A stretch of 44,769 nt of DNA from Candidatus Omnitrophota bacterium (GTDB lineage Bacteria > Omnitrophota > Gorgyraeia > Zapsychrales > Zapsychraceae), in NCBI GenBank assembly GCA_020429915.1, contig JAGQKV010000013.1:31787-76555 (forward strand). The letters are read 5' to 3'. Under the pieces are notes generated by a model. The model was given only the letters and a program-made list of their open reading frames with translations. It did no database searches and was not told the DNA's origin. Below, piece after piece: positions 8,090 through 32,822 of this stretch (positions are counted from its first letter, which is position 1; each line of letters starts with the position of its first letter). Made by a program: the position numbers and the translations under genes.

Positions 8090-8108
8090 TCAGGGCGGGA
8101 GGCGTCAA

Positions 8109-8495: not shown

Positions 8496-8505
8496 GGAGC
8501 GGGTT

Positions 8506-16720: not shown

Positions 16721-16805
16721 CGTAATTAAGCACGGCATTTATCCCACTGGGCCAGTCCATTCCGGACTAAGGTTCTAAGGTTTTCCTCAAGATTTTTTTT
16801 AATTT

Positions 16806-16878
16806 GGGCCACTAGCTCATCTGGTAGAGCAACTGACTCTTAATCAGTGGGTGGCAGGTTCGAGTCCTGCGTGGCCCA
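16806..16878 (+). tRNA. tRNA-Lys(CUU)
   Basis: A complete cloverleaf: acceptor GGGCCAC/GTGGCCC, D arm with GCTC/GAGC, anticodon stem ACTGA/TCAGT around loop CTCTTAA (anticodon CTT), T arm GCAGG-TTCGAGT-CCTGC, discriminator A. It is 73 nt long and CCA is not encoded. The transketolase gene starts 25 nt downstream with no terminator between, so the two may share a transcript. Confidence 0.97.
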
Positions 16879-16903
16879 TCATTTCTGTCAACTTGGAGAG
16901 TTC

Positions 16904-17716
16904 ATGAGCGCGAGCGCTGCGGAATTACGCGAGAAAGCGAAACAGTTCCGGCGGGAAATTCTCGAAACGACCCACCGGGCGGGATCCGGGCATCCCGGCG
17001 GATCATTGTCCTGTGTCGAAATTCTGATCACGTTGTACGAAGAGGTTATGCAGCACAAGCCCGACGAACCCAAATGGGACGGGCGGGACCATCTGATCAT
17101 CTCCAAAGGCCACGCCACCCCGGCCGTCTATGTCACCCTTGCCAACTACGGCTACTTTCCCAAAGAAGAATTACCCGGCTTTCGCAAGTTCGGGAGCATT
17201 CTGCAGGGCCATGTCCATACCAAGGTGCCCGGTGTTGAGTTCAATACCGGATCTTTGGGGCACGGCCTGTCCGTGGCCAACGGTTTGGCTATCGGTAACA
17301 GGTTGCTGGGCAAGAATAACAAGGTGTATTGTCTTTTGGGTGACGGGGAGATCCAGGAAGGATCGATTTGGGAGGCCGCCATGCATGCCTCGCACCGAAA
17401 GTTGGACAATCTCTGTGCGATCGTGGATTACAACAAAGTCCAGGAGAACGGTCCGACTAACGAAATCAAAAACCTCGAGCCGCTGTCGGAGAAATGGATG
17501 AGTTTCGGCTGGGAGGTCCGCGAGGTTATCGGGCATAATTTCGGACAATTACGGCAGGCTTTTGCCGAATTTGCCGACAATAAGGGTAAGCCGTTCGTGA
17601 TCCTGGCGCATACGATAAAGGGCAAGGGAGTATCCTTTATGGAAGGAGAACGCCAATGGCATGGGAAGGCTCCGAACGCCGAGCAGCTGCAGGAAGCGCT
17701 GGCGGAACTGGAATAG
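16904..17716 (+). CDS. Transketolase, N-terminal (TPP-binding) subunit
   Basis: The 270-residue protein is the N-terminal half of a split transketolase. It moves two-carbon units between sugar phosphates in the non-oxidative pentose phosphate pathway. I start at the ATG at 16904 after GGAGAG. Visible motifs: GSGHPGGSLSC (phosphate and TPP contacts), ISKGHATPAVY, GSLGHGLSVANG, and the TPP/Mg motif GDGEIQEG...DYNKVQ. It needs the next gene for the pyrimidine-binding half. Split transketolases are common in archaea and many anaerobes. First gene of the pentose-phosphate cluster. Confidence 0.95.
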   Translation: MSASAAELREKAKQFRREILETTHRAGSGHPGGSLSCVEILITLYEEVMQHKPDEPKWDGRDHLIISKGHATPAVYVTLANYGYFPKEELPGFRKFGSILQGHVHTKVPGVEFNTGSLGHGLSVANGLAIGNRLLGKNNKVYCLLGDGEIQEGSIWEAAMHASHRKLDNLCAIVDYNKVQENGPTNEIKNLEPLSEKWMSFGWEVREVIGHNFGQLRQAFAEFADNKGKPFVILAHTIKGKGVSFMEGERQWHGKAPNAEQLQEALAELE

Positions 17717-17745
17717 CTCAGCATAACGAAGAGAAGGAAAACGGA

Positions 17746-18711
17746 ATGAGTGAGAAGATCCCCACCCGTGACGGGTTCGGCAAGGAGCTCGTCGAGTTGG
17801 GTCGAGAAAATGATAAAATCGTCGTCGTTTCCGCCGACCTCGAAGACGCCACGCGCGCCGAATACTTCAAAAACGAATTCCCCGAAAGATTTTTTACCTG
17901 CGGTATTGCCGAGCAGGACATGGTTGGCACGGCCGCGGGCTTGAGCATGCATGGCTTTATTCCGTTTATCAATTCCTTTGCCGTGTTCATGACCAACCGT
18001 GCCTATGATATGCTGCGTCTCGACGTCTGTTACAACAACTGCAATGTGAAGATTATCTGTTCGCATGCCGGAGTGACCGTCGGAGAGGACGGAGCGTCCG
18101 CCCAAAGTCTGGAAGATCTGGCCCTGATGCGGGTCCTGCCCAATATCAAAGTGGTTGTCCCGGCCGACGAAATGGAGGCGCGCAAAGCCACCCGGATATT
18201 CGCCCGGGAAGCAGGTCCGATGTACATGCGCACGTCCCGCGCGCCGTTTCCCGTGCTGACCTCGGTCGAGGATGCATTTGAGATCGGCAAGGCGAATATT
18301 GTCCGCGACGGCGGCGATGTCACGTTGATCGCCTGCGGTATTCATGTGTCGGAATCGCTGAGCGCCGCGCAGATGCTGAAAAAAGACGGCATCGACGCGC
18401 GGGTTATCAATATGCATACGCTAAAGCCTATCGATGAGGCCGCTATCGTGACCGCGGCCCGGGAGACCGGCGCCATCGTAACCGCCGAAGAGCATCAGCG
18501 TTTCGGAGGTCTCGGCAGCGCGGTGGCCGAGGTGGTGGTCCAACAATGTCCCGTGCCGATGGAGTTTGTCGCCGTCGACGATACATTCGGACAAACAGGT
18601 TCCCCCCAGCAATTGCTTGAGGTCTTTCACCTGAAGGACAAGGATATTGCCGCTGCCGCCAAGCAAGCGCTGTCCCGCAAGAATTCAGGCGCCCCGCACG
18701 TCAAGGCCTAG
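17746..18711 (+). CDS. Transketolase, C-terminal subunit
   Basis: The 321-residue protein pairs with the preceding gene to form active transketolase. I start at the ATG at 17746 (GAGAAGGAAAACGGA upstream). It contains the pyrimidine-binding domain with the catalytic Glu in CGIAEQDMVG (near residue 56), HAGVTVGEDGASAQ, and a C-terminal transketolase_C domain with EEHQRFGGLGSAVAEV. The length is normal for this half. Thirty nt separate it from its partner gene. Confidence 0.95.
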   Translation: MSEKIPTRDGFGKELVELGRENDKIVVVSADLEDATRAEYFKNEFPERFFTCGIAEQDMVGTAAGLSMHGFIPFINSFAVFMTNRAYDMLRLDVCYNNCNVKIICSHAGVTVGEDGASAQSLEDLALMRVLPNIKVVVPADEMEARKATRIFAREAGPMYMRTSRAPFPVLTSVEDAFEIGKANIVRDGGDVTLIACGIHVSESLSAAQMLKKDGIDARVINMHTLKPIDEAAIVTAARETGAIVTAEEHQRFGGLGSAVAEVVVQQCPVPMEFVAVDDTFGQTGSPQQLLEVFHLKDKDIAAAAKQALSRKNSGAPHVKA

Positions 18712-18796
18712 CGGTTCGTCTTCGGATCATCCTCTTCGTCCGGTTGTTCATTTGAATTTTAGCCCAATCACGACGTTATCCCCAGGGAGGAGATTT

Positions 18797-19921
18797 ATGG
18801 CCCCATCAACCATCCAACAATTGGCAGACTACGGACAAAGCATCTGGCTGGACTATATCAATAGGCCCATGCTGGAGAACGGTGAGCTGAAACAGCGTAT
18901 CGCCAACGGGCTGCGTGGCATGACGTCGAATCCTTCCATTTTTCAGAAAGCTATCGGATCCACCCACGATTATGATCAGGAAATCATCCGCTTGAAAACA
19001 GAAGGCAAATCGGCCTTCGAGATATACGACGCCCTGACGATCCGCGATATTCAAGACGCTGCCGACTGTTTCCGTGACGTGTATGATCGGACCGGCGGAT
19101 TGGACGGATACGTCAGCCTCGAGATCAATCCCTTGCTGGCGGCCAAGGTGGAAGAGCAGGCCGCGGAGGGAATCCGGTTGTTCGAAAAGGTGGGCCGTCC
19201 CAACGTTATGATCAAGGTTCCGTCCACGGAACAGGGATATGCCGTGATCCGGACGCTGATCGGGCGCGGCATCAATGTGAATGCCACCCTGATTTTCTCG
19301 TTGAGCCAATACGAACAGGTCGCGGCCGCATACTGTGCCGGGGTGCGGGATTTGCAGTCGGCCGGTGGTGACCTGAGCGCGGTGCATTCCGTGGCGAGTG
19401 TTTTTGTCAGCCGAATCGACAGCGTGATCGACAAGAAATTGGCGGAAATCTCCGTCGAAGACACGGCGCATGCGGACGAGGCCGGAGACCTGGCGGGACA
19501 GGCGGCCGTGGCCAATTCACGCCTTATTTTCGAACGGGCCGAGGCGCTGTTCGGCGGTCCGGAATTCAAGGCGCTGGCCGCCGCCGGCGCCAACCGGCAG
19601 CGGGTCCTCTGGGGATCGACCAGCACCAAGAATCCCGCCTACAGTGACATCAAATACGTAACCGAGCTGATCGCCAGACCCACCGTCAATACGGTCCCCG
19701 AGCAGACCTTGGTGGCCTTCCTGGACCATGGTGAAGTCGGCGAGGCCTTCGCAGCGGACGCCGCGCCGGCCCGCGAGATTGTCGCCCGCTTAAAGACATT
19801 GGGAATCGACCTTGACGAGGTGAACGCGCAATTGCTGCGCGACGGCTGTACCGCGTTTGACTGCGCCTTTGAAGATCTCTTAAAATCGATCGAAAGCAAG
19901 GCGGCCGCGTTGGCCGGATAG
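18797..19921 (+). CDS. tal: Transaldolase
   Basis: The 374-residue protein transfers dihydroxyacetone units in the pentose phosphate pathway. I start at the ATG at 18797, 4 nt after AGGGAGGAG. The Schiff-base Lys is Lys140 in NVMIKVPST. Other family motifs: GMTSNPSIFQ (41-50), EINPLLA (109-115), NATLIFSLSQY and WGSTSTKNP. The length fits the long transaldolases of about 370 residues seen in actinobacteria, cyanobacteria and in transaldolase/glucose-6-phosphate isomerase fusions. Only 85 nt separate it from the transketolase gene, consistent with one operon. Confidence 0.95.
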   Translation: MAPSTIQQLADYGQSIWLDYINRPMLENGELKQRIANGLRGMTSNPSIFQKAIGSTHDYDQEIIRLKTEGKSAFEIYDALTIRDIQDAADCFRDVYDRTGGLDGYVSLEINPLLAAKVEEQAAEGIRLFEKVGRPNVMIKVPSTEQGYAVIRTLIGRGINVNATLIFSLSQYEQVAAAYCAGVRDLQSAGGDLSAVHSVASVFVSRIDSVIDKKLAEISVEDTAHADEAGDLAGQAAVANSRLIFERAEALFGGPEFKALAAAGANRQRVLWGSTSTKNPAYSDIKYVTELIARPTVNTVPEQTLVAFLDHGEVGEAFAADAAPAREIVARLKTLGIDLDEVNAQLLRDGCTAFDCAFEDLLKSIESKAAALAG

Positions 19922-19931
19922 GCACGCTTGC

Positions 19932-20864
19932 ATGATCCATCCGACCGAAGAGTACTATCATATATCCAAACCGGAATGGGTGACAACCCCCGACGGTGAT
20001 CAGCGGGGGTATATTCAACCGCGGGAGCTGCGCGAGTTGTGGTTTCATACCGGTACGATCTGTAATCTCAGCTGTCCGTTCTGTCTGGAGGGATCCAGGC
20101 CGGGTGACAACCGTCTGAATATGGTGACCCTGGAAGATGTTCGGCCGCTGATAGACGAGGCGCTCACCCTGGGGGTGGAGCGCTTTTCTTTTACCGGCGG
20201 CGAGCCGTTTGTCGTCAAGGAAATGGTCCGTATTCTTGATTTCGCGCTGGACCACCGGCCCTGTCTGGTGCTGACCAATGCGACGCATCCCTTGCAGCGC
20301 CGGCTGGATGAAATTCGCCCGCTGATCCGCAAGCCCAATCCGCTCAATTTTCGCATCAGTCTTGACTATCCCGATCCCGAGCAGCATGACCGTTCACGCG
20401 GACAGGGAAACTTTATGCTCAGCCTGCAGACTATGACGGAACTCAACCGTATCGGGTTCGGGATATCGATCGCGCGCCAGCGTGAACAGGATGAAGACAG
20501 CGCCGCGGTGGATCGTCGGTTCCAACGCCATTTTCGATGCGCCGGTGTCCCGAAAGATACGCGCATCGTGAGTTTTCCGGATTTTCTGGCGCCGGGCACC
20601 ATTGCCGAGGTGCCGCACATCACTCGTGAATGTATGACAAAGTATCACGATGAGGAATCGCGCAGCCGTTTCATGTGCCATTTCAGCAAAATGGTCGTCA
20701 AGAAAGACGACCGGATGCGCGTGTATGCCTGTACGCTCGTCGATGACGACGAGGACTACGATTTGGGGGGCTCGCTTGGTGAGGCCATGCGGGCCCGGAT
20801 TATGATGAAGCATCACCGCTGCTATTCCTGTTTTGCGCAGGGAGCCTCTTGCAGCGAAAGCTAG
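19932..20864 (+). CDS. Radical SAM protein with C-terminal Cys cluster
   Basis: The 310-residue enzyme has the radical SAM signature CNLSCPFC (Cys44, Cys48, Cys51), which binds a 4Fe-4S cluster and S-adenosylmethionine, followed by the GGEPF motif (near 97). At the C-terminus further Cys residues (in TRECMTK, FMCHFS, YACTLV, CYSCFAQGASC) look like SPASM-type auxiliary cluster ligands. The substrate is unknown. It starts 10 nt after the transaldolase stop and is followed by 6-phosphogluconolactonase, so a role linked to sugar phosphates or a co-regulated modification is possible. Ribosome-binding site weak. Confidence 0.88.
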   Translation: MIHPTEEYYHISKPEWVTTPDGDQRGYIQPRELRELWFHTGTICNLSCPFCLEGSRPGDNRLNMVTLEDVRPLIDEALTLGVERFSFTGGEPFVVKEMVRILDFALDHRPCLVLTNATHPLQRRLDEIRPLIRKPNPLNFRISLDYPDPEQHDRSRGQGNFMLSLQTMTELNRIGFGISIARQREQDEDSAAVDRRFQRHFRCAGVPKDTRIVSFPDFLAPGTIAEVPHITRECMTKYHDEESRSRFMCHFSKMVVKKDDRMRVYACTLVDDDEDYDLGGSLGEAMRARIMMKHHRCYSCFAQGASCSES

Positions 20865-20878
20865 GACGGAGGACCGGG

Positions 20879-21655
20879 ATGACACCCGAAGTGATACTCT
20901 TTCCGGACAGCCACAGGCTGGCCGATTACCTGGTTAAGACCTGGATCCATTTGGCCAACGAAGTCATCGGTGAACATGGCCGTTTCAGCAGCGCATTTCC
21001 CGGTGGTCGTTCTCCGGTCGAATTTTACAATCTGCTGTCGTCCTGGCCGGATTTTAATCTGTGGTCGAAGGTGCATATCTTCCAAACGGACGAACGCTTT
21101 GTGGACGAACATCATCCGGACAACAATTTCCGGTTGATTAAGGACAACCTGTTGAGGCATATTCCGATCCCGATGGAGAATGTCTTTCCGGTGCCGTCCC
21201 ATGTCGAGACGGTGGGGATGGCGGCGGAAGAGTATAAGAATACACTGGTCCGGTTTTTTACCCTCGACCGGAATCACCTGCCCATCATTGACTTTGTTCT
21301 GCTGGGTCTGGGAGAAGACGGTCACACGGCGTCTTTGTTTCCCGGCGTCGACGGCATCAATGATCCGTACCGGCTGACGATGCCGGTGTCGATTAATCAT
21401 CTCAAACACGACCGGATCAGCATGACGTTGTCGGTGATCAATAACGCGCGGAATGTCATGTTCTTGGTGACGGGTGCGCAAAAGGCCGAGGCCGTGCGCG
21501 AAGTCCTGGAGCGGGGGGGCGATTATCCGGCCGCGCAGGTCCGTCCGCGGCAGGGGAAGCTCACCTTTCTGCTGGACGCTCAGGCCGCGCAACTCTTGGA
21601 ACACAAAGAACGCTATCTCACCCAAGCACAACCCCTGTCTATCAATCCGGAGTAA
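20879..21655 (+). CDS. pgl: 6-phosphogluconolactonase
   Basis: The 258-residue protein hydrolyses 6-phosphogluconolactone in the oxidative pentose phosphate pathway. I start at the ATG at 20879 after ACGGAGG. Motifs of the DevB/SOL family are present: FPGGRSP (substrate phosphate loop), QTDERFVDEHHPDNNFRL, and GLGEDGHTASLFPG with the catalytic His. Neither glucose-6-phosphate dehydrogenase nor 6-phosphogluconate dehydrogenase is in the window, so this cluster holds only part of the oxidative branch. Confidence 0.93.
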   Translation: MTPEVILFPDSHRLADYLVKTWIHLANEVIGEHGRFSSAFPGGRSPVEFYNLLSSWPDFNLWSKVHIFQTDERFVDEHHPDNNFRLIKDNLLRHIPIPMENVFPVPSHVETVGMAAEEYKNTLVRFFTLDRNHLPIIDFVLLGLGEDGHTASLFPGVDGINDPYRLTMPVSINHLKHDRISMTLSVINNARNVMFLVTGAQKAEAVREVLERGGDYPAAQVRPRQGKLTFLLDAQAAQLLEHKERYLTQAQPLSINPE

Positions 21656-21919: not shown

Positions 21920-21959
21920 AGAAGGGAGATATGCATAACTGTCTAACCAGAAAGTGGTT

Positions 21960-23444
21960 ATGAATCCCTGGCAACGTCTGGCCGGTTTGAGCCGGGACGA
22001 CATCAAACAACTTCAGGACCGCAAGCTTCATCAATTCATCAACGAATACATCTACCCATTCAGCCCGTACTATCGCAAGTTATTTGATGACAATAAGATC
22101 GATCCGAGAAATATCCGGCGGGCGGAAGACCTTAGACACATTCCGTTTACCTCCAAGCGGGACTTCATCGATGACGACGAGGAGTATCCCCGATTTCGGG
22201 ACTTTGTTCTGCAGCCGGATGCGGAAAAGATCCGCCGTGCCTGGCCCGTGAGCAAGACCGTGCCGCTGGCCGTATTGAAGGCCCTGCGCGGTTCCGAAGC
22301 GGTCGTGCACCGGATCTCGCAGGAATTCCGCCCAGTATTTATGACGTACACCACCGGCACCACTAACAAGCCGATACCGTTTATGTATTCCAATTATGAT
22401 GTGGATAACTGGCGGGTGTCCGGGGCGCGGATGATGAACTTGTTCGAGGTCGATCCGGAAGAGAAGGTCCTCAATTTGTTTCCCTACGCGCCGCATCTGG
22501 CCTTTTGGCAAGTCGTCTTCGGCGGTTTGGCGGCGTGTAATCTGGTCCTCAGCACCGGTGGCGGAAAGACGGTGGGGACCGAGGGGAACATCAAGGCCTT
22601 GGCCAAAATGCAGCCGACCCTGGTACTCGGGGTCCCCAGTTATGTCTACCATGTTCTGCGGACTGCGATGGACGACGGCGTGCGGCTCGACTTCGTCAAG
22701 AAAGTGGTACTCGGTGCCTCTAAGGTAACGGTCGGATTCAAGAAAAAGCTCGCCGAGCTGCTGACGGCTATGGGTGCGACCGATGTCCGGATTTTCGGAA
22801 CGTACGGTTTCACCGAGGCGCGCTGCGCCTGGGCCGAGAGCCCGACCGGATTGGAGGAATCCAGCGGCTACCATCTCTATCCGGACCGCGAGATCTTTGA
22901 GGTGATCGATCCCGAGACCGGTGAAGTCAAGGGGGAGGGGGAGGACGGAGAAATCGTTTACACGTCGCTGGACTCGCGCGGCAGCAGCGTGTTGCGTTAC
23001 CGTACCGGTGATTTTGTGCGGGGCGGGATCCGTTACGACAAATGTCCTTACAAAAATTGGTTTGTCCCGCGGCTGTCGAGTGACATCAGCCGTCTGAGCG
23101 ACGTTAAAGACCTTCAGCTGTCGAAGGTCAAAGGCGCGCTGGTGAATCTCAATCACTTCGGCGCGGTCTTATCCGACTTGCCCGTCGTGGATGAATGGCA
23201 GTTAGAGATCCGCAAGAAGGATGACGACCCCTACGAGGTGGATGAACTGGTGGTCTATGTGTGCGTCAAATCCGATTGCGACCGGGCTGCCCTGGAGCGC
23301 AAGATCCGTCAGGAGATGGTGGCGGCCACCGAAGTGGCCCCGAACAAGATCGTCTATATTGAACACCCGGAAATGGTGGAACGGTTACAGATCGAGGTAG
23401 CCAACAAGGAAAAACGAGTCGTCGACGCCCGGCCGCAAGGATAA
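21960..23444 (+). CDS. PaaK-like AMP-forming acyl-CoA ligase
   Basis: The 494-residue protein belongs to the adenylate-forming superfamily, closest in pattern to phenylacetate-CoA ligase (PaaK). Visible motifs: nucleotide loop TYTTGTTNKP, FGTYGFTEAR, and a C-terminal domain with YRTGDFV. Such enzymes join a carboxylic acid to CoA using ATP. In this cluster it probably activates fatty or aromatic acids for beta-oxidation (inference). The ATG at 21960 has no strong ribosome-binding site; a 10-codon frame (21931-21963) with GAAGGGAG overlaps it by ATGA. A GTG at 21954 is an alternative start. Confidence 0.82.
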   Translation: MNPWQRLAGLSRDDIKQLQDRKLHQFINEYIYPFSPYYRKLFDDNKIDPRNIRRAEDLRHIPFTSKRDFIDDDEEYPRFRDFVLQPDAEKIRRAWPVSKTVPLAVLKALRGSEAVVHRISQEFRPVFMTYTTGTTNKPIPFMYSNYDVDNWRVSGARMMNLFEVDPEEKVLNLFPYAPHLAFWQVVFGGLAACNLVLSTGGGKTVGTEGNIKALAKMQPTLVLGVPSYVYHVLRTAMDDGVRLDFVKKVVLGASKVTVGFKKKLAELLTAMGATDVRIFGTYGFTEARCAWAESPTGLEESSGYHLYPDREIFEVIDPETGEVKGEGEDGEIVYTSLDSRGSSVLRYRTGDFVRGGIRYDKCPYKNWFVPRLSSDISRLSDVKDLQLSKVKGALVNLNHFGAVLSDLPVVDEWQLEIRKKDDDPYEVDELVVYVCVKSDCDRAALERKIRQEMVAATEVAPNKIVYIEHPEMVERLQIEVANKEKRVVDARPQG

Positions 23445-23479
23445 TCCCGGCTGGACGCCGTGAAGAAAAGGAGTGGTTC

Positions 23480-24760
23480 GTGTCACGCATCGCCGTTATC
23501 GACGGTATTCGCACACCGTTTGTTAAATACCAAACCGACTTTCGCAGCCTTTCCGCGCAGGAACTGGGCCGGATAGCGTGTCGCGAATTGATCGAGCGCA
23601 CCGGTCTGGACCCGGCTCTGCTGGATGAAGTCATAATCGGATGCGTTGCGCAGCCCGCCGAAGCCGCGAATCTGGCACGCGTGGTCGCGCTGCTGGCGGG
23701 GGTGCCCGAGCGGGTACCGGCCTTCACCGTTCATCGTAATTGCGCGTCGGGGATCGAGGCCGCGGTGCAGGCGGTCCTCAAGATCCGGCAGGACGAAGGC
23801 GCTCTCTATTTGACCGGCGGGACCGAGTCGATGAGCAATATCCCGCTGTATTATTCCGCCAAGACACAACAGATTTTTGCCGAGCTGGCGCGTGCCAAGA
23901 CCTTACCGGCGCGCCTGCGGGCCTTTGCCAAATTCCGGATGGGGGAATTGCTTAAACCCACTGTCGGATTGATGCAGGGCCTCACCGATCCGGTTTGCGG
24001 CTTGAACATGGGGCAGACCGCCGAGGTGCTGGCCAAGGAATTCGGCATTACGAGACAGGAACAGGACGACTTCGCCTTGCAGAGCCATCAACGCGCCGTC
24101 GCGGCGCGTGATCGTCTGCGCGAGGAAATTGTTCCGGTCATTCCGGGGCCGAAGTACGGCAAGGCCGTGGAGAACGATAACGGACCGCGTGAGCAGCAGA
24201 CGATCGAGGCCCTGGCAAAATTGCGTCCCGTCTTTGACCGGCACGCCGGATCCGTCACGGCAGGCAATGCGAGTCAGATTACGGACGGCGCATGCAGCCT
24301 GTTGATCGCCAAAGAGGAAAAAGCACGGGAGCTGGGGTATGTGCCGCTGGGATATATCCGGGAGTTCGCCTTTGCCGGTGTCGAACCGCACCGGATGGGG
24401 ATCGGACCGGCGCATGCTATTCCTCAGGTCCTGCGAAAGGCGGGCATGAATATGTCCGACGTGCAGGCCTTTGAAATCAATGAGGCCTTCGCGGTGCAAG
24501 TGCTGGCGTGCCTGCGCCTGCTGGCGTCGGACGCGTTTGCCAAACGATTCGGATATGAAGGATTCACCGGAGAGATCAGTCCGGACAAGATCAATGTCAA
24601 CGGCGGTGCCATCGCCTTGGGACACCCGGTCGGGACGACGGGTGCGCGTCTGATCCTGACCATGCTGAAGCATATGCAACGCGAGGGGCTGTCAACCGGT
24701 CTGGTGTCGCTGTGTATCGGCGGAGGACAGGGAGCGGCTGTTATTCTGGAGCGGGAGTGA
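23480..24760 (+). CDS. Thiolase (acetyl-CoA acyltransferase)
   Basis: The 426-residue protein does the last step of beta-oxidation, cleaving 3-ketoacyl-CoA. It starts at GTG, 6 nt after AAAGGAG. The acyl-binding Cys88 is in HRNCASGIEA; NEAFAVQ, GGAIALGHPVG (catalytic His) and SLCIGGGQG (second Cys) are all present. The length is closer to the FadI/trifunctional-beta type (about 430) than to biosynthetic thiolases (about 390). It is directly upstream of the FadB-like fusion, with which it would form the fatty acid oxidation complex. Confidence 0.93.
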   Translation: MSRIAVIDGIRTPFVKYQTDFRSLSAQELGRIACRELIERTGLDPALLDEVIIGCVAQPAEAANLARVVALLAGVPERVPAFTVHRNCASGIEAAVQAVLKIRQDEGALYLTGGTESMSNIPLYYSAKTQQIFAELARAKTLPARLRAFAKFRMGELLKPTVGLMQGLTDPVCGLNMGQTAEVLAKEFGITRQEQDDFALQSHQRAVAARDRLREEIVPVIPGPKYGKAVENDNGPREQQTIEALAKLRPVFDRHAGSVTAGNASQITDGACSLLIAKEEKARELGYVPLGYIREFAFAGVEPHRMGIGPAHAIPQVLRKAGMNMSDVQAFEINEAFAVQVLACLRLLASDAFAKRFGYEGFTGEISPDKINVNGGAIALGHPVGTTGARLILTMLKHMQREGLSTGLVSLCIGGGQGAAVILERE

Positions 24761-24782
24761 GGAATCGAACAGGAGTACTTGA

Positions 24783-26921
24783 GTGATAACATTTCGGGAA
24801 GATAACCATATCGGCTATGTGGAGTTCGACGATCCCGACGCCAAGGTGAACGTATTGGGCGCGAATGCCCTCGCCCGGCTGACGCAGATCGTCTCCGACC
24901 TGGGAACGATCAGCAATCTCAAGGCGGTCGTTTTCCAAAGTCGTAAACCGGGGGTGTTCATTGCCGGCGCGGACATCCGTGAGATCCAGAGTATCAACGA
25001 ACTGGAGGATGCCCGGACCAAGGTGCGTGTCGGTCAGGACCTCTTTGACGCGATTGAAGATTTGAAAATCCCGACAGTGGCTTTCATCGACGGCGTGGCT
25101 TTGGGCGGCGGCTGCGAACTGGCGCTGGCCTGTCTGTATCGCGTTGCTACATTCAACGACAAGGTCAAGATCGGATTGCCCGAGGTGAATCTCGGGGTGA
25201 TGCCCGGATTCGGCGGGACCTACCGCTTGCCGCGGATTATCGGATTGACCGAGTCGCTGAAACTTATTCTCGCCGGGAAGCCGGTCGACGGACGCAAGGC
25301 GCTGCGCATCGGGCTGGTGGACAAATTGATCCCGTCTGCCGGGGCTGAAGCTCATCTGCTTGAGTATATTCATCGGATCGTCGAGAAGAATGTCAAAAAG
25401 AAACGCTACCGGCCGCCGCGGAGCAAGGGGATGATCGGGGTCCTTGAGCGTTTTCGCCCGTTGCACGGATTGATTTTTAAACAGTCCCGGCAAAACGTGA
25501 TGGCTCTCACCAAAGGGCGCTATCCCGCTCCGCTCAAGGCGCTGGAGACGATTCAACAAAATTTCTATGTGAAACGGCCGCGGGCCTTGGAGCTGGAGCG
25601 CGAGGCCTTTGCCGAGCTGGCGATCACGGACATCTCCAAGAACCTGATCCACGTATTTTTCCTCATGGAGAAATATAAGAAGCTCAAGCTTCCCGGCGGT
25701 GAGGATCTCAGCGCCGACATCCGGCATATGTCGGTGCTGGGTGCCGGTGTCATGGGCGGCGGCATCGCACAACTGCTGGCCTCACGCGGCATATGGGTGC
25801 GGCTGAAGGATATTAACTTTGAGGCCCTGGCGCAGGGGCTGCGGGCCGCGGTCAAGATCTTCTCAGAGGCGGTGAAGAAACGCCGGATCACCAAGGCGGA
25901 GGCCGAACGCCGGATGGGGCAGATCACCCCGACGCTCGATTACAGCGGATTCGGTCATACCGATATGGTGATTGAGGCGGTGGTCGAGAATATGGATATC
26001 AAGAAAAGCGTCTTTCAGGAACTGGACGGCGTCGTCGGGCCGCACACGATTTTGGCCACCAATACGTCAGCCCTGTCCGTTACCGAGATGGCCTCCGTCG
26101 TGAAGGACCCGTCCCGCGTGGTCGGTTTTCATTTCTTCAATCCCGTTCATCGCATGCCGCTGGTGGAGATCATCACCACGGACCGGACCTCCGCAGCCAC
26201 CACCGCGACGGCGTTGGGGCTGGCCAAACGCTTGGGCAAGACGCCGGTCGTGGTCAAAGACTCCAGCGGTTTTTTGGTGAACCGGATCCTGCTGGTCTAT
26301 ATGGCTGAGGCGGGACGCATTCTTGAGGAGACCGGGGACCCGGAGCACATCGATCAGGTGATCACGGATTTCGGTATGCCGATGGGCCCGTTCTTGCTAT
26401 CCGATGAAGTCGGGCTGGACGTCGGTTTGAAGGTGATGCGCATTCTGCAGGATAGTTTCGGGGACCGTTACCGGCCGGTTAAGATATTCGACAAATTGCT
26501 GGAACATAAAAAGCTCGGCAAGAAAACCGGGACCGGTTTTTACCGACATAATCGCCGGGCGCGCAGTATCGATCCCGTGGTCATCGGGATGCTGGACCGC
26601 AGCCAAGTTCATAGCGTGGCCGATCCCGTCATCCAGAAGAGGCTCATCTATCTCATGATAAATGAGGCGGCCCGCTGTCTCGAGGAGGGTGTGGTCGACG
26701 AGCCCCACGCGGTGGATGTGGGGATGATTTTCGGGACGGGTTTTCCGCCGTTTCGGGGGGGGCTGTTATATTACGCGGACAAGATCGGGATCGGCGAGGT
26801 GGTCGACGAGCTGATCCGGTTTCAGGATCAATACCACTCCGATAGGTTCGCGCCCTGCGAATATCTTAAACGCCTTAAGGAGCAACAATCAACGTTTTAC
26901 AGCACAGGTGGCGTCTCATGA
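24783..26921 (+). CDS. Enoyl-CoA hydratase / 3-hydroxyacyl-CoA dehydrogenase fusion (FadB/FadJ type)
   Basis: The 712-residue bifunctional enzyme does the hydration and second oxidation of beta-oxidation. It starts at GTG after AGGAG. The N-terminal crotonase domain (1-190) has the oxyanion-hole segments AGADIRE and GGGCELALA, and LPEVNLGVMPGFGG with the catalytic Glu residues. The NAD-binding domain begins at VLGAGVMGGG (near 320), with TNTSALSVTEMA and the catalytic His in GFHFFNPVHRMP. The C-terminal 3HCDH domains follow (SSGFLVNRI). All key residues are present. The stop overlaps the next start by ATGA. Confidence 0.95.
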   Translation: MITFREDNHIGYVEFDDPDAKVNVLGANALARLTQIVSDLGTISNLKAVVFQSRKPGVFIAGADIREIQSINELEDARTKVRVGQDLFDAIEDLKIPTVAFIDGVALGGGCELALACLYRVATFNDKVKIGLPEVNLGVMPGFGGTYRLPRIIGLTESLKLILAGKPVDGRKALRIGLVDKLIPSAGAEAHLLEYIHRIVEKNVKKKRYRPPRSKGMIGVLERFRPLHGLIFKQSRQNVMALTKGRYPAPLKALETIQQNFYVKRPRALELEREAFAELAITDISKNLIHVFFLMEKYKKLKLPGGEDLSADIRHMSVLGAGVMGGGIAQLLASRGIWVRLKDINFEALAQGLRAAVKIFSEAVKKRRITKAEAERRMGQITPTLDYSGFGHTDMVIEAVVENMDIKKSVFQELDGVVGPHTILATNTSALSVTEMASVVKDPSRVVGFHFFNPVHRMPLVEIITTDRTSAATTATALGLAKRLGKTPVVVKDSSGFLVNRILLVYMAEAGRILEETGDPEHIDQVITDFGMPMGPFLLSDEVGLDVGLKVMRILQDSFGDRYRPVKIFDKLLEHKKLGKKTGTGFYRHNRRARSIDPVVIGMLDRSQVHSVADPVIQKRLIYLMINEAARCLEEGVVDEPHAVDVGMIFGTGFPPFRGGLLYYADKIGIGEVVDELIRFQDQYHSDRFAPCEYLKRLKEQQSTFYSTGGVS

Positions 26922-27475
26922 ACAGAAGAACGAAAATAGTGTACATCTCCGGGGGGATCGGCTTGATCCTCATTATCACCGTCGTCACGCTCTATTTGTT
27001 GCAGTACAAGTATCGCCGGTATACCGACAAGGCGCGCGGATTCTCGATCGAGTATCCCGCGCAATGGGAGATAATGAAGGATTACGGCGGTGCGGCGGTC
27101 GTCTTTAAGTCGCCGCTCGACGGTCCGCTGGACGTCTTTCACGAGAACGTCAATATCGTGGTTCAGGATATTTCGCACGATCCGCTTTCTTTGCGGGAGT
27201 ACAGTGACCGGGCGATTTATCAGATGGAAGTGACGTTTATGCAGAACTTTGAACTGGAAGAGTCCACCGCCGTGGCCACACTGGGAGGCTATCCGGCATA
27301 CAAAATCATCTTTACGGGTCACGGTCCGAACACCGAACTTCGCTACTATATGACATGGATTGTTCTCGACAAGGTCAAGGCCTATCAGGTGAACTACACC
27401 GCGCTTCCATCGCAATTCGACAAATACGATCTGATGGTCGAACGCATGCTGGCGTCGTTTAAGGTCCTGCGGTAA
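26918..27475 (+). CDS. PsbP/DUF1795-like membrane-anchored protein
   Basis: The 185-residue protein has an N-terminal membrane anchor (about 7-28) and a periplasmic domain with the PsbP/DcrB pattern: ARGFSIEYPAQWEIMKDYGG, a later strand NVNIVVQDIS, and GYPAYKIIFTG near the end. These domains are often exported and of unknown role. It overlaps the FadB-like stop, so it is translated with the beta-oxidation enzyme, although no direct link is known. Confidence 0.7.
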   Translation: MNRRTKIVYISGGIGLILIITVVTLYLLQYKYRRYTDKARGFSIEYPAQWEIMKDYGGAAVVFKSPLDGPLDVFHENVNIVVQDISHDPLSLREYSDRAIYQMEVTFMQNFELEESTAVATLGGYPAYKIIFTGHGPNTELRYYMTWIVLDKVKAYQVNYTALPSQFDKYDLMVERMLASFKVLR

Positions 27476-27486
27476 CGGTCTTTGAC

Positions 27487-28548
27487 ATGCATAATACAAG
27501 TGAATCTCAATCGCCCGCAGCGGAACCCCGCTGCCCCTACTTCGGCGAATGTGGTGGCTGTCTCTACCAGGATGTGCCGTATCAGGAGGAGTTGAGGCGG
27601 AAGGAAGAAATATTGCGCGAAATTCTGCAGGAAGCCCTGCCCGCTCAAGACCTCTCGATCCGTCCGGTCGAGGCGTCCCCGCGGGAATATCATTACCGTC
27701 ACCGTCTTGATCTACGTTTGCTGAAGACGCGTGAACAAAAGATTTTCGTGGGTTTCTCGCCGAAGGACCGTTTCGGCGTCGTGGATGTGGAGCAGTGTCC
27801 GATTGCCATGGGCGCGGTGTCCGACTTTATTCCGGAACTCAAGCGCCAAGCGGCAGCTGTGCTCCCGAGTGAATACCGCCTGGCCAATCTGGTGGTGCGT
27901 TGCGGCGACGAGGGGCGGGTCCATTGGGGCGGGATCGGCAAACGTTCGTTGCGGCAACAGCCCGAAGATTATCTGTGGACCGAAGTGAACGGCCTCAAAG
28001 TGTACTACGCGCTTGATACGTTTTTTCAGGCGAATTTGTCGATATTACCCCGCCTGTTTGAAGTCATCCGCCGTATGCCGGTATGGTCGCCGGACGTGAC
28101 CTTCTTGGATCTGTACGGCGGGGTGGGCTTGTTTTGTATGGGATTGTCCGGCCGGTACGGCCGGGCCGTGCTGATCGAAGACAGCAAGAATTCGATCCAG
28201 CTGGCCCATTATAATGTCCTGAAGCATCGGTTAAATGATATCACGGTTATCGAAAGCCGGGTCGAGGATGTGTTGGATAAAGTCCTGACGGAACTGACGG
28301 GGCCGGCAGTGGCCATGATAGATCCGCCGCGCGCCGGGCTTTCGGCCGAAGCGCGCGCCATGCTGAACGCGGCGGGAGGGCGGATCGGGCAGCTGTTGTA
28401 TTTGTCCTGCCAGCCGGAGGCCCTGGGACGGGACCTGCGGGAACTGGCCGGGACATGGCGGGTTCGGGAAATCATCCCGTTTGATTTCTTTCCGAAAACA
28501 CGGCATCTGGAAACTTTGGTCCGGCTCTCGCCGGCGGGGGAGGATTAA
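27487..28548 (+). CDS. RNA (uracil-C5) methyltransferase, RlmD/TrmA family
   Basis: The 353-residue protein belongs to the SAM-dependent m5U methyltransferases. An iron-sulfur site is suggested by CPYFGECGGC (Cys16, Cys22, Cys25) plus a later Cys in VEQCPIA. The SAM pocket has FLDLYGGVGLF; the catalytic Cys is in YLSCQPEAL and the general-base Glu in HLETLVRL. The usual N-terminal TRAM domain is missing, which makes it shorter than RlmD of E. coli. Substrate (23S rRNA or tRNA) cannot be decided. It is co-oriented within the fatty-acid cluster without obvious functional link. Confidence 0.85.
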   Translation: MHNTSESQSPAAEPRCPYFGECGGCLYQDVPYQEELRRKEEILREILQEALPAQDLSIRPVEASPREYHYRHRLDLRLLKTREQKIFVGFSPKDRFGVVDVEQCPIAMGAVSDFIPELKRQAAAVLPSEYRLANLVVRCGDEGRVHWGGIGKRSLRQQPEDYLWTEVNGLKVYYALDTFFQANLSILPRLFEVIRRMPVWSPDVTFLDLYGGVGLFCMGLSGRYGRAVLIEDSKNSIQLAHYNVLKHRLNDITVIESRVEDVLDKVLTELTGPAVAMIDPPRAGLSAEARAMLNAAGGRIGQLLYLSCQPEALGRDLRELAGTWRVREIIPFDFFPKTRHLETLVRLSPAGED

Positions 28549-28550
28549 GC

Positions 28551-28847
28551 ATGGAAAAAAGTGAAGTCCCGTTTGAGAAAAAAATATTTGTCTGTACCAA
28601 CGGCAATGCCGGCAAGAACGGCTGCTGCGGCGCCCGGCAGGGAGTCGAGATCTTCCAGGCGCTGCGGACCATTGCCAAGGACCGAGGGGTTCATCCGCGG
28701 ATTCGGGTTGCCCAAGCCACCTGTCTGGGGCAGTGCGCGCGCGGGGTCAATGTCATGGTCTTTCCGGACAATGAATGGTATTTCGCGGTCACACCCGACG
28801 ACGTGGCACAGATCGCCGAAGCGCATATCCTCGCGGACGGGGAGTAA
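28551..28847 (+). CDS. Thioredoxin-like 2Fe-2S ferredoxin
   Basis: The 98-residue protein resembles thioredoxin-like 2Fe-2S ferredoxins. Ligands are probably Cys15, Cys25 or Cys26, Cys58 and Cys62 (TCLGQC). It starts 3 nt after the methyltransferase stop. It lies upstream of an acyl-CoA dehydrogenase and could carry electrons from it or serve the iron-sulfur methyltransferase; both are guesses. Confidence 0.85.
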   Translation: MEKSEVPFEKKIFVCTNGNAGKNGCCGARQGVEIFQALRTIAKDRGVHPRIRVAQATCLGQCARGVNVMVFPDNEWYFAVTPDDVAQIAEAHILADGE

Positions 28848-28874
28848 GGACCCGCAGGGGAAAAGGAGGCTGTC

Positions 28875-30728
28875 ATGAGTATGTTTGACAAGAATACCAG
28901 CAAAGAAGCCAGAGAGTCGCTGGAGTTTGCCGAAGACCAGCGTGAAACCGAATGGGTTCATCCCAGTTTCGCGTTGCAGTTGTTCCACGGACATGTCGAC
29001 TGGGGCCTGATCCATCCCTTTCCTGAACAAAGCGCCGAAGACAAACAACTCGGCGACGAATACGTCGCCAGGCTGAAGGATTTTCTTGTCAAGAATCTCG
29101 ATCCCGACGAAGTCGATCGCACCGGCATTATTCCCGAAAAAGTCTACCACGGATTAGCCCAGCTGGGGGCCTTTGCCATCAAGGTTCCCAAGGAGTACGG
29201 CGGTCTGGGCATGAGCCAGGTGAACTACAACCGGGCCATTCATCTGGTGGCCAGCTATTGCGGTTCGACGGCGGTCCTGCTGTCCGCGCATCAGAGTATC
29301 GGCGTGCCGCAGCCGCTCAAGCTGTTCGGTACCGAGGCGCAGAAGAAAAAATATTTGCCGATGTTCGGCAAAGGAACGGTCTCGGCATTTGCTCTCACCG
29401 AGCCGTCGGTGGGGAGTGATCCGCGTAACATGACCACCACGGCCACGCCCACCGAGGACGGGACGCATTTTCTGCTTAACGGGGACAAGTTGTGGTGCAC
29501 CAACGGCCTGATCGCCGGCGTCATCGTAGTCATGGCCGTCACGCCGCCGAAAATGGTGAAGGGGAAAGAGCGTAAACAGATCACCGCGTTTATCGTGGAG
29601 ATGGATACCCCCGGCATCGAAAAAGTCCATCGCTGTCAGTTTCTGGGGCTGCACGGAATTCAAAACGGCCTGTTGCGGTTCAAGGACGTGAAAGTCCCGC
29701 GGGAGAATATCATCGGGGCTGAGGGTGACGGCCTGCGGTTGGCGTTGACGACGCTCAACACCGGTCGTCTCACACTTCCGGCGGCTTCCGTCGGGATATG
29801 CAAGTGGTGTCTGCATGTGGTGCGGGAATGGTCGACGCAGCGCGTTCAGTGGGGATCGCCGATCGGTGAGCATGAGGCGATCGGACTCAAGCTGGGTTAT
29901 ATTGCGGGGCACACCTTCGCGATGGACGCCCTGACGTGGCTGTGCTCGCACATGGGCGACGACAAAAAGAAGGATATCCGCCTGGAAGCGGCCATGGCCA
30001 AATATTTTTGTACGCATCACGCGTGGCGGATCGCCGATGAGACCCTGCAAATCCGCGGCGGTCAGGGCTATGAAAACGCCGAGTCCCTGCGCGCCCGCGG
30101 TATGGAACCTTGGCCGGTGGAGCGCGTTTTGCGGGACTGCCGCATCAACATCATTATCGAGGGGACCTCGGAGATCATGCATTTGTTTATCGCCCGTGAG
30201 GCCCTCGATCCGCATTTGAGCAAGGCCCTGCCGCTGCTCAGCGGCAAAACGCCGCTGAACGAGAAGTTCAGGACACTGGGCAGGTTGGCCGCCCACTATG
30301 CCGTTTGGTACCCCAAACTTTATCTTCCCTCGACACAAGCCTTCGGCGATCTGCATCCGCAGCTGCAGGGGCATATGCACTATTGTCAGCGCGCCAGCAA
30401 GCGGCTCGCCCGGCTGATGTTCCATCAGATGGCCAAACATCAGCAACGGCTGGCTAGCAAACAGTCGATTCTCAACCGCATCGTGGATGTCGGCGTCGAG
30501 CTTTTCGCCGTGGCCGCGACGTGCGCCTATGCCGATCATTTAGTTAAGTCCGGCGGAAATAAGGAAAACGCGCTGGAGCTGGCCGATCTGTATTGCCGCA
30601 GCGCGCGTCAGTATATCAGCCGGCAATTCTCGGATTCCCGTGCGAACCATGACGCCGCTTCTCTGAAGGTCGCCAAAAAGGTCATGGCCAAAGAATATGC
30701 CTGGCTGGAAGACGATATTATCGTATAA
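28875..30728 (+). CDS. Acyl-CoA dehydrogenase, VLCAD-like long form
   Basis: The 617-residue FAD enzyme does the first oxidation of beta-oxidation. AAAAGGAGG lies upstream. It is much longer than MCAD (about 400); the C-terminal extension (about 450-617) is typical of VLCAD/ACAD9-like enzymes that act on long chains and associate with membranes. Motifs: FALTEPSVGSD (flavin and substrate contacts), RGGQGYEN and the catalytic Glu429 in IIEGTSEIM. No electron-transfer flavoprotein is in the window. The ferredoxin just upstream may be relevant. Confidence 0.93.
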   Translation: MSMFDKNTSKEARESLEFAEDQRETEWVHPSFALQLFHGHVDWGLIHPFPEQSAEDKQLGDEYVARLKDFLVKNLDPDEVDRTGIIPEKVYHGLAQLGAFAIKVPKEYGGLGMSQVNYNRAIHLVASYCGSTAVLLSAHQSIGVPQPLKLFGTEAQKKKYLPMFGKGTVSAFALTEPSVGSDPRNMTTTATPTEDGTHFLLNGDKLWCTNGLIAGVIVVMAVTPPKMVKGKERKQITAFIVEMDTPGIEKVHRCQFLGLHGIQNGLLRFKDVKVPRENIIGAEGDGLRLALTTLNTGRLTLPAASVGICKWCLHVVREWSTQRVQWGSPIGEHEAIGLKLGYIAGHTFAMDALTWLCSHMGDDKKKDIRLEAAMAKYFCTHHAWRIADETLQIRGGQGYENAESLRARGMEPWPVERVLRDCRINIIIEGTSEIMHLFIAREALDPHLSKALPLLSGKTPLNEKFRTLGRLAAHYAVWYPKLYLPSTQAFGDLHPQLQGHMHYCQRASKRLARLMFHQMAKHQQRLASKQSILNRIVDVGVELFAVAATCAYADHLVKSGGNKENALELADLYCRSARQYISRQFSDSRANHDAASLKVAKKVMAKEYAWLEDDIIV

Positions 30729-30743
30729 GACGGGCGAGAGGTT

Positions 30744-32822
30744 ATGATGAACGCATTTCTGAACCGTTTTAACACGGTTAAACAGATTCCTATTTTTGCC
30801 AAGCTCAATTGGTATGATCTGCAGCGCATTGCCCGCAAGTCGACATTGGAGGAGTTTAAAAAGGGTGAGGTGATTTGCCGTCAGGGGACTCCGCCGGACT
30901 TTTTCTACTGCCTTGTCTCCGGCCGGCTGCGGACATACACGACCAACGACAAAGGCCGGATGGATAATGTCGAATTCATCCATCGGGGCGTTCACTTCGG
31001 CATCATTTCCCTGCTCACCGGCGAGAATCACACGCTGACCTACGAAGCGGTCAATAATTCCACGGTCCTCAAGATAGAAAAGACCCAGTTCCATCAGATC
31101 CTCACCTCCATCCCGGCGCTGAGTATCGAGCTCAATCAAAGTCTGTCCAAACGTGTGCGCAGTGCGATCAGCGGCGTGAAGACGATCTTCGAGAGTACGA
31201 TCATATCCGTTTACAGCCCGGTGCGCTCGGCCGGCAGTTCCACCTATGCGGTCAATCTGGCGATGAGCCTCAAGCAGGAGACCAACAAAAAGGTCGTCTT
31301 CGTCAATTTGGTGCCGGGCCCGTACACGGAGCCTTCAACGCCGGAGCAACAAACCATGCCGCGCTGGAAAAAGGCGCCGGCGGCCATGGGGCCGTTGTTA
31401 TCGGATTCCATGCGGATCGTCCAGGCGATCACCCGGGACGAATCCGGGATCGACCTGATTCATCTCAGCTTCGATCCCAACGGCCCGGCGCTGAAGTCTG
31501 ATGTGGGCCATCTGCTCAGCGCCCTGGTCGGCGACTATCATTACGTGGTGATCGACCTGCCCAATGCCATGGACGACGCCGTTCTGGAGACGCTTACTCA
31601 GTCCGACCTGGTGCATCTGATCACCTCCGACCGGGAGAAGGACCTCCAGTTGACACGCAACGTGATCGATCAGTTGGAACGGGCACTCAAGGCCAGCTTC
31701 CGTGAAGAAAAGATCAAGGTGATTATCCGTGCCTTTCATGCGCAGATTTATCTCTCTTTCGAAGAGATCAACAAGTTCATCGATTTTTATATCTATAATT
31801 CACTGCCGCTGATCATGCCGGAGGATTTGACGCACACGGTGGATACCCCCAGTATGCATTTTCAGCACTGTCACGAGCAGGCTTTGTACGCAAAGACCGT
31901 GCGCCGCATCGCGCGCGAGATCGGCGGGGTCCTGGTCGGGCTGGTGCTGGGCGGCGGGGCCGCGCTGGGAGTCGCACATATCGGCGTTATCCGGGTGCTG
32001 GAAGAGGCGGGGGTGCCGATCGATATTGTGGTGGGCAGCAGCATGGGGGCGCTGGTCGGCGGTTTTTGGGCCTCCGGCATGACCGTCGAAGAATTGGAGG
32101 GTGCGGCCCGAGAATTCGAGAAACCCGTCGACACCTTGACTAAATTATATTCGCTGCCAAATCCGCTTCGAGGGCTGGTGGGATCAAGAAGGGTCAAAGC
32201 ATGGCTCAAGAAGCATGTTGGTAATAAAACGTTTTACAGCGTCCGGATTCCCTTCAAAGCTGTGGCCTTTGATCTTGTTCGGCGGCAAGATGTGATCATC
32301 GAAAGCGGTTCTCTGGTGGACGGTATCCGCCGAAGCATCTCCATTCCGGGTGTCTTTTCGCCCTTGTCGGAAAACGGGATGGAGATCATCGACGGCGGCG
32401 TTCTCAATCCGTTGCCTACTGACGTGATGGTCGGGCTGGGGATCAAGCGGATCATCGCCGTCAACGTGCTTCAGTCGCCGGAGGATGTGATGGCTGGCGT
32501 TGAGTACTTTCAGCGGCAACTAGACGCTCGCGCGGTGGTTACGTTTATTCAAAATCCGTTTCATTTTGTTGGATTCCGAATCGGTCGGTTTTTTCACTGG
32601 ATGTTTAATCCCATCATCCCGGACATTATCATACGAACTTTACAGGCCAGTGAATATGTTATCGCTGAACAAAGCGCTCAGCAGGCGGACGTGGTCATCC
32701 ATCCGGAGCTGGTCGGCGTCAACTGGCATGAACTCGACAAGGTCGATCAATTGCTGGAAGCCGGTGTGGAGGCCGCGCGGCAGAAGCTCCCCGAAATTAA
32801 ACGCATGCTTGAAGAGGATTAA
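30744..32822 (+). CDS. Cyclic-nucleotide-binding / ParA-like / patatin lipase fusion
   Basis: The 692-residue protein has three parts. Residues 15-150 are a cNMP-binding domain (RQGTPPDFFYCLVSGRL, jelly-roll strands). Residues 152-385 resemble a ParA/MinD/CpaE P-loop ATPase: VYSPVRSAGSSTYAVNLA replaces the usual KGGVGKT, so the Walker Lys is missing, while VVIDLPNAMDD keeps the Walker B-like position. Residues 395-600 are a patatin lipase: oxyanion GGGAALGVAHIGV (403-415), nucleophile Ser433 in GSSMG, and Asp550 in DGG. NTE-type phospholipases also join cNMP and patatin domains. It is the last gene of the fatty-acid cluster, 15 nt after the dehydrogenase. No signal peptide is seen. Confidence 0.9.
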   Translation: MMNAFLNRFNTVKQIPIFAKLNWYDLQRIARKSTLEEFKKGEVICRQGTPPDFFYCLVSGRLRTYTTNDKGRMDNVEFIHRGVHFGIISLLTGENHTLTYEAVNNSTVLKIEKTQFHQILTSIPALSIELNQSLSKRVRSAISGVKTIFESTIISVYSPVRSAGSSTYAVNLAMSLKQETNKKVVFVNLVPGPYTEPSTPEQQTMPRWKKAPAAMGPLLSDSMRIVQAITRDESGIDLIHLSFDPNGPALKSDVGHLLSALVGDYHYVVIDLPNAMDDAVLETLTQSDLVHLITSDREKDLQLTRNVIDQLERALKASFREEKIKVIIRAFHAQIYLSFEEINKFIDFYIYNSLPLIMPEDLTHTVDTPSMHFQHCHEQALYAKTVRRIAREIGGVLVGLVLGGGAALGVAHIGVIRVLEEAGVPIDIVVGSSMGALVGGFWASGMTVEELEGAAREFEKPVDTLTKLYSLPNPLRGLVGSRRVKAWLKKHVGNKTFYSVRIPFKAVAFDLVRRQDVIIESGSLVDGIRRSISIPGVFSPLSENGMEIIDGGVLNPLPTDVMVGLGIKRIIAVNVLQSPEDVMAGVEYFQRQLDARAVVTFIQNPFHFVGFRIGRFFHWMFNPIIPDIIIRTLQASEYVIAEQSAQQADVVIHPELVGVNWHELDKVDQLLEAGVEAARQKLPEIKRMLEED

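Follow-up and report, generated by a model that had tools for sequence, protein, structure and literature searches.

A CNB-patatin lipase gene linked to beta-oxidation genes in Omnitrophota and its proposed role in phospholipid catabolism

Gene content and organization of the cluster

The genomic window analysed here (44,769 nucleotides of contig JAGQKV010000013.1 from a Candidatus Omnitrophota bacterium, assembly GCA_020429915.1) contains at positions 21954-32822 a cluster of eight tightly packed genes, all located on the plus strand, which begins with an acyl-CoA ligase gene and is closed by the gene for a three-domain lipase (Table 1). The intergenic gaps in gene order are 35, 22, -4, 11, 2, 27 and 15 nt. 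A thiolase, a FadJ-type hydratase/dehydrogenase fusion, an acyl-CoA dehydrogenase (ACAD) and the acyl-CoA ligase are all encoded together in the cluster, and the ligase gene adjoins the thiolase gene in relatives as well. Glu429 of the ACAD, located in the motif IIEGTSEI, pairs with the motif IFEGTNEI of ACAD9. For the ligase an alternative ATG start is present at position 21960, which is the start used in an initial annotation of this DNA.

This annotation had described a co-oriented run of ligase, thiolase, FadB-type fusion and ACAD genes, closed by a patatin lipase with a cyclic nucleotide-binding (CNB) domain, and all of these were recovered at the place and on the strand given, with the small gaps and overlaps measuring between -4 and 35 nt. 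It had left out the PsbP-like protein, the RumA-like methyltransferase, the 98-aa ferredoxin and the MinD/ParA-fold domain within the lipase. An open reading frame (ORF) of 105 aa at 28561-28878 was rejected as a spurious hypothetical gene, as the conserved ferredoxin occupies another, overlapping frame. The eight genes may share a single transcript and would then form an operon. A scan for promoters and terminators gave counts at chance level (6 versus a mean of 6.0; 12 versus 11.4) and is therefore uninformative on co-transcription.

Table 1. Coordinates of the cluster genes, of the lipase domains and of the neighbouring sugar-phosphate genes in the window
Feature	Position	Strand	Supporting matches and motifs
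PaaK-superfamily AMP-binding acyl-CoA ligase	21954..23444	+	Pfam AMP-binding 7.2e-16; NCBIfam PaaK-type 2.5e-42, below its cut-off
Thiolase, acetyl-CoA C-acyltransferase type	23480..24760	+	NCASG, GHPVG and CIGGG motifs kept
FadJ-type enoyl-CoA hydratase/3-hydroxyacyl-CoA dehydrogenase fusion (FadJ/FadB-type)	24783..26921	+	Pfam; NCBIfam FadJ 6.8e-214, below curated cut-off
PsbP-like protein	26918..27475	+	Pfam PsbP 1.3e-13; apparent N-terminal membrane anchor by eye
RumA/TrmA-like RNA m5U methyltransferase	27487..28548	+	Pfam 2.7e-25; NCBIfam rumA 2.2e-44, below cut-off
Thioredoxin-like [2Fe-2S] ferredoxin, 98 aa	28551..28847	+	NCBIfam 1.5e-15, below cut-off; PDB 5abr 3e-11, 1f37 1.5e-10
VLCAD/ACAD9-type acyl-CoA dehydrogenase	28875..30728	+	Pfam including ACAD9-ACADV_C; PDB 8phe 8.6e-85
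Three-domain lipase CNB - MinD/ParA-fold - patatin, 692 aa	30744..32822	+	cNMP_binding E 6.4e-20; Patatin E 8.3e-29
CNB phosphate-binding cassette (aa 82-104)	30987..31055	+	GVHFGIISLLTGENHTLTYEAVN; Glu->Ile87, Arg->His96
MinD/ParA-fold domain (aa 150-393)	31191..31922	+	degenerate P-loop SPVRSAGSSTYA at 31215-31250
Patatin catalytic domain (aa 395-690)	31926..32813	+	GGGAALG; GSSMG (Ser433 codon 32040); DGG (Asp550 codon 32391)
Sugar-phosphate genes (transketolase halves, transaldolase, radical SAM, 6-phosphogluconolactonase-type)	16847..21655	+	cluster neighbours

Domain architecture of the lipase

The C-terminal patatin domain of the lipase combines the patatin fold with the oxyanion glycines and the catalytic dyad of Ser433 and Asp550, both of which are kept in all 108 aligned homologs (49 near and 59 distant). 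The cNMP_binding domain occurs in a single copy in the window lipase and was detected in 49 of 49 orthologs. In the predicted model of the protein, a degenerate MinD/ParA-fold domain sits between the CNB and the patatin domains. In contrast to the MinD/ParA family (ParA 3ea0, MinD 4v03, FleN 5j1j), the motif SPVRSAGSSTYA is devoid of the P-loop lysine and does not constitute a deviant Walker A motif, although the fold itself was recovered. Of the 59 distant homologs, 25 have Lys and 16 have Arg at the aligned position. Because the lysine is missing in the window motif and Lys or Arg is found in distant homologs, the domain has probably lost nucleotide hydrolysis in the order to which the source organism belongs.

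The architecture resembles that of the neuropathy target esterase (NTE) family (PNPLA6/7, Swiss cheese, yeast Nte1) and of bacterial CNB-patatin proteins, in which a CNB fold likewise lies N-terminal to a Ser-Asp patatin domain. The animal proteins differ by their three CNB domains versus one here, and here the gene stands in a bacterial operon context. The existence of the Pfam model NTE_Ploop (PF24179) indicates that a P-loop module occurs in the NTE family too, where it is located between CNB and patatin. In 14 genomes, the source genome among them, no match to this model was obtained even at E<=10 (a control run was positive in 4 of 14 named genomes), and the model was consequently rejected as proof of NTE membership. 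Pseudomonas PlpD (5fya/5fqu) is also among the closest known systems; it is a secreted autotransporter lipase with neither a CNB nor a MinD/ParA domain, and the window lipase would be cytoplasmic.

Linkage of the lipase gene to beta-oxidation genes

Conservation of the gene order was analysed in a near set of 56 genomes, which are estimated to be 59-98% complete and are not statistically independent, and from which 52 near loci were fetched. The lipase was matched in 54 genomes including the source; in one of these (G031) only a weak CNB match was obtained, leaving 53 real lipases, some of which are cut by contig ends. Orthologs of the ACAD, defined by at least 65% identity over the whole length (in G027 the gene is divided between two contigs, the parts having 76 and 56% identity), were present in 29 of the 56 genomes, and FadJ at E<=1e-20 in 27. 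At 24 of the 52 near loci the first query gene encountered 5' of the lipase, on the same strand, is the ACAD, with gaps of 11-259 nt. With the window included, adjacency holds for 25 of the 29 genomes with an ACAD ortholog, the exceptions (G004, G021, G026, G030) all belonging to one genus, which argues that the cluster is more than a chance arrangement. At three loci of genus g3 (L044, L046, L077) the ACAD is separated from the lipase by 8.6-12.6 kb. A scan of genome contigs gave one named match, JAUIER010000004.1, an unclassified metagenome-assembled genome.

Across the phylum, the lipase profile matched 244 of 286 genomes at E<=1e-40 and 159 at E<=1e-135, and nearly all matches listed at the latter threshold were full-length. 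From the best-scoring full-length matches, 60 distant loci were hand-picked and their genes were called by a simple longest-ORF method; the counts are given out of 59, as the lipase of one locus (L128) was found by tblastn but lost by the ORF picker. At 31 of the 59 loci the lipase has a beta-oxidation gene on its own strand no more than four genes away (directly adjacent at 29; upstream at 6 and downstream at 25), and 15 of 25 families contain at least one locus linked in this way, while families such as f15 (9 of 10 loci) and f20 (3 of 3) are devoid of such a link.

Two arrangements recur among the distant loci. In the first, ligase, thiolase, fused FadJ, ACAD and lipase follow each other as in the window (L119, L120, L123; shorter forms in L124, L125 and L139). 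In the second, the lipase is followed by thiolase and by unfused HCDH and ECH genes, with or without an ACAD and a FadD-like ligase, and a glycerophosphodiester phosphodiesterase (GDPD) or glycerol kinase gene lies upstream of the lipase at 17 of the 59 loci, in 15 cases together with at least one downstream beta-oxidation gene. Pfam searches with one representative per group identified GDPD, FGGY kinase, Hydrolase_4, ECH, HCDH, PilZ and DUF520/YajQ; the FGGY kinase was read by eye as glycerol kinase, and FadD (C5) was likewise named by eye from its sequence.

Further observations were made at individual distant loci. Genes for a PilZ-domain protein and for YajQ (DUF520), both of which are linked to cyclic di-GMP (c-di-GMP) in other bacteria, lie ahead of those for glycerol kinase, GDPD and the lipase in L130, L132 and L157. 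Seven f15 loci (L126, L136, L140, L143, L144, L146, L148) carry a GH1-type glycosidase gene upstream and a small gene, lipoprotein-like by eye, downstream of the lipase, and no named lipid genes were found within five genes of the lipase at these seven loci.

The CNB domain and cyclic nucleotides

In a phmmer alignment to the regulatory subunit RII-alpha of protein kinase A (PKA), FGELALVTNKPRAA pairs ungapped with FGIISLLTGENHTL, so that both cassette residues by which a CNB domain binding cyclic AMP (cAMP) or cyclic GMP (cGMP) is recognised, Glu and Arg, are replaced in the window lipase, by Ile87 and His96. All 108 aligned homologs carry His at the Arg position; at the Glu position, 43 of the 49 near homologs have Ile and 6 have Val. 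The CNB fold with a replaced cassette Arg is shared with the trypanosome cAMP-independent PKA regulatory subunit, a structural neighbour (6h4g, 6hyi), which according to PMC6440977 and PMC10959531 is a kinase regulator binding nucleosides; in the window lipase the replacing residue is His. PMC6440977 also reports that ligand choice was not predicted by sequence alone.

In a search restricted to class III cyclases (PF00211; control run positive in 5 of 14 named genomes), no match was found in the source genome or in its two genus mates, and 9 of the 56 near genomes were positive. GGDEF proteins are present in 56 of 56 genomes, with 8 matches in the source genome. On account of this difference, c-di-GMP is the more available second messenger in these genomes, and it can be named as a candidate ligand of the lipase.

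Electron transfer flavoprotein and the ferredoxin

The two families of the electron transfer flavoprotein (ETF) were found in 22 (PF00766) and 23 (PF01012) of the 56 near genomes, with controls positive in 10 of 14. An unexpected result was that 24 of the 29 genomes with an ACAD ortholog, among them the source genome, yielded no ETF. ACAD ortholog and ETF-alpha occur together in 5 genomes, ACAD only in 24, ETF only in 17 and neither in 10 (Fisher p 0.0008, kinship ignored), i.e. the ETF genes are mostly present where the ACAD ortholog is absent, and in several of the ETF genomes they lie beside a different ACAD of 32-36% identity.

The 98-aa ferredoxin encoded directly upstream of the ACAD holds Cys 15, 25/26, 58 and 62, which corresponds to the cysteine pattern of the thioredoxin-like [2Fe-2S] ferredoxin family (CX9-10C followed by CX3C), in agreement with the family matches in Table 1. 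Its gene was found on 15 of the 52 near loci, all of which carry an ACAD, usually within 250 nt of it and in three near loci at 0.6-2.5 kb. On 12 of the 27 near stretches with an ACAD, some of them cut by contig ends, no ferredoxin gene was detected, and none of the 60 distant loci yielded one. The ferredoxin is a candidate electron carrier for the ACAD. Ligase, ACAD, hydratase/dehydrogenase fusion and thiolase are common to the cluster and to the FadBA/FadIJ-FadE beta-oxidation systems; in contrast to these, the source genome yielded no ETF, and the cluster holds a ferredoxin beside the ACAD as well as a patatin lipase. A multiheme cytochrome c (cytochrome c7 and MtrC-like domains) fused with a cytochrome b561-type membrane domain is encoded at 37857-39743 on the minus strand of the window and is a possible respiratory partner.

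Proposed function and alternative explanations

We consider it probable that the cluster is a phospholipid-catabolic operon, in which the lipase releases fatty acids and the ligase together with ACAD, FadJ and thiolase burns them, and that the canonical control by cAMP or cGMP does not apply to the lipase, whose N-terminal domains would sense something else. The patatin phospholipase with Ser433 and Asp550 would free fatty acids from glycerophospholipids, which the ligase would turn into acyl-CoA to be shortened by beta-oxidation through ACAD, FadJ fusion and thiolase. The products of a patatin phospholipase would be fatty acids and glycerophosphodiesters; from the latter GDPD would make glycerol-3-phosphate, and glycerol kinase would handle glycerol. 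Considering the established functions of these families, the presence of GDPD or glycerol kinase as well as ligase and beta-oxidation genes beside the lipase suggests phospholipid breakdown. The CNB fold and the degenerate MinD/ParA-fold domain would most likely act together as a module for regulation or membrane positioning, with a ligand other than cAMP or cGMP. In the initial annotation it had been proposed that lipid release feeds the oxidation enzymes; this lipid mobilisation half of its inference is supported by the neighbourhoods in both arrangements, but the coupling is not an obligate one (see below).

Several points weigh against this interpretation. The substrate is derived from family membership. 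Only the fatty acid half of the pathway is encoded in the window, the fullest set being that of the second arrangement, and no search for GDPD, glycerol kinase or FadD was made in the source genome. The distant loci are not a random sample, and 28 of the 59 have no beta-oxidation gene within four genes of the lipase. Both ACAD ortholog and FadJ are missing from 27 of the 56 near genomes. The lipase is retained in 24 of these, and many of them carry another, more distant ACAD; the coupling is thus not obligate, and feeding beta-oxidation cannot be the only role of the lipase. Neither PF00766 nor PF01012 was found in the source genome (G000, estimated 94.35% complete) or its genus mates. The usual electron acceptor of the ACAD would then be lacking, and the pathway might operate in the opposite direction. 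Finally, the cassette Glu is kept in 29 of the 59 distant homologs, and according to PMC6440977 a mammalian RIalpha without the cassette Arg kept activation with a half-maximal effective concentration only 5-fold worse, so that loss of this Arg alone is no proof of lost cAMP binding.

A possible alternative, which we regard as rather less probable, is that the lipase serves general membrane-lipid homeostasis or remodelling independently of the beta-oxidation genes, which would be its neighbours by history. This would fit the wider distribution of the lipase compared with FadJ (53 versus 27 of the 56 genomes, and 34 versus 17 of the 35 genomes that are >=90% complete and <=5% contaminated), as well as the 12 of 52 near loci at which the lipase follows within 150 nt after RumA on a stretch with no ACAD, FadJ or thiolase (L075 has a ligase). 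The recurrence of beta-oxidation adjacency in different forms, with fused FadJ upstream in one and unfused HCDH and ECH downstream in the other, and with GDPD, FGGY kinase and FadD-like genes nearby, argues for phospholipid catabolism instead.

It is unlikely that the thiolase, FadJ and ACAD act in the reverse direction to elongate or reduce acyl chains, with the ferredoxin donating electrons to the ACAD and the lipase remodelling the resulting lipids. A low-potential ferredoxin is a poor acceptor and a better donor for the acyl-CoA dehydrogenation couple, which speaks for this direction, as do the location of the ferredoxin gene 27 nt upstream of the ACAD, its restriction to near loci with an ACAD and the frequent lack of detectable ETF-alpha in genomes with the ACAD ortholog. 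The GDPD, FGGY kinase, FadD-like and Hydrolase_4 neighbours of the second arrangement point to breakdown, among proteins of solved structure the ACAD is closest to ACAD9 and VLCAD, and the ferredoxin gene was not found on many ACAD-holding near stretches, some of them cut by contig ends, nor on any distant locus.

The gating proposed in the initial annotation, in which cAMP or cGMP binds the CNB domain, switches the lipase on and so feeds beta-oxidation, is judged very improbable. For the related PNPLA6, raised cAMP is reported in PMC9025805 to increase NTE level and activity in HeLa cells. Since both ligand residues are replaced in the window protein, with His for Arg in every aligned homolog, and class III cyclases were not found in the source genome or its two genus mates, gating of the lipase by these cyclic nucleotides is not supported. 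An anti-phage effector of Pycsar or CBASS type, in which a CNB sensor is fused to a membrane-destroying patatin, is hardly credible and was rejected, because the PADLOC matches cover only the CNB part (PycTIR, 8.1e-9, residues 27-160) or a short patatin stretch (Phospholipase effector, 0.0018, 400-454) and, although patatin effectors (CapV, CapE) are among its structural neighbours, PF00211 was not found in the source genome, neither a cyclase nor an adjacent PycC was found among the scanned neighbours, and the lipase occurs in metabolic neighbourhoods and, at E<=1e-135, in more than half of the phylum genomes.

Literature on bacterial CNB-patatin architectures and NTE P-loop structures, on Omnitrophota with patatin or beta-oxidation and on ETF-free acyl-CoA dehydrogenation was searched by titles and beginnings of abstracts, in which no description of this operon was recognised. 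A term search in the text of an Omnitrophota survey (PMC10066038) returned 'fatty acid' once and neither 'lipase' nor 'phospholip', and the Omnitrophota passages of PMC13248872 and PMC7382037 are unrelated to this operon, as is the content found in PMC5131308.

Other features of the window and of relatives

The sugar-phosphate genes upstream of the cluster stay with PsbP, RumA and lipase in several relatives whose locus is without the beta-oxidation block. A tRNA-Lys gene (16805-16880) covers position 16847, where the GTG start of the transketolase N-half ORF is listed; this gene therefore begins further downstream. Between the 6-phosphogluconolactonase-type gene and the ligase, a 68-aa ORF (21659-21865, plus strand) encodes a hydrophobic stretch and is DUF2892-type-like by eye. 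Elsewhere on the plus strand of the window, a VWA/DUF1194 protein with a C-terminal PEP-CTERM sorting motif (2344-3270) and genes of type II secretion/type IV pilus type (4484-9018; a T2SSE-type ATPase, a T2SSF-type protein and two pilin-like proteins with N-methylation motif) were identified. In the 23S rRNA gene of a genome from the same class (G128), a group I intron match was found below the gathering score (40.6 vs 50 bits, E 4.8e-9); the rRNA match (L177) stretches over 2768 nt while covering 2024 model positions, the pattern that an insertion would produce. An intron in 23S rRNA is also reported for Ca. Velamenicoccus archaeovorus (PMC13153191), for which a closed genome is described (PMC12583861).

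Implications

The lipase is a bacterial relative of the NTE-like architecture of CNB, P-loop-type fold and patatin that is common across the whole phylum, and the neighbourhoods of its gene point to a metabolic role for this protein. In its CNB domain an invariant His stands in place of Arg, which provides a domain whose ligand can be directly tested. A far-reaching and doubtful extension would be that this widespread, uncultured, small-genome lineage of Omnitrophota, a phylum that includes a predator, feeds on the phospholipids of other cells, with a ligand other than cAMP or cGMP (c-di-GMP or a nucleoside) controlling the lipase and with an ETF-free beta-oxidation in which the ACAD is served by the dedicated ferredoxin or another carrier. 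The cluster raises the concrete question of how acyl-CoA dehydrogenation runs in genomes without detectable ETF.

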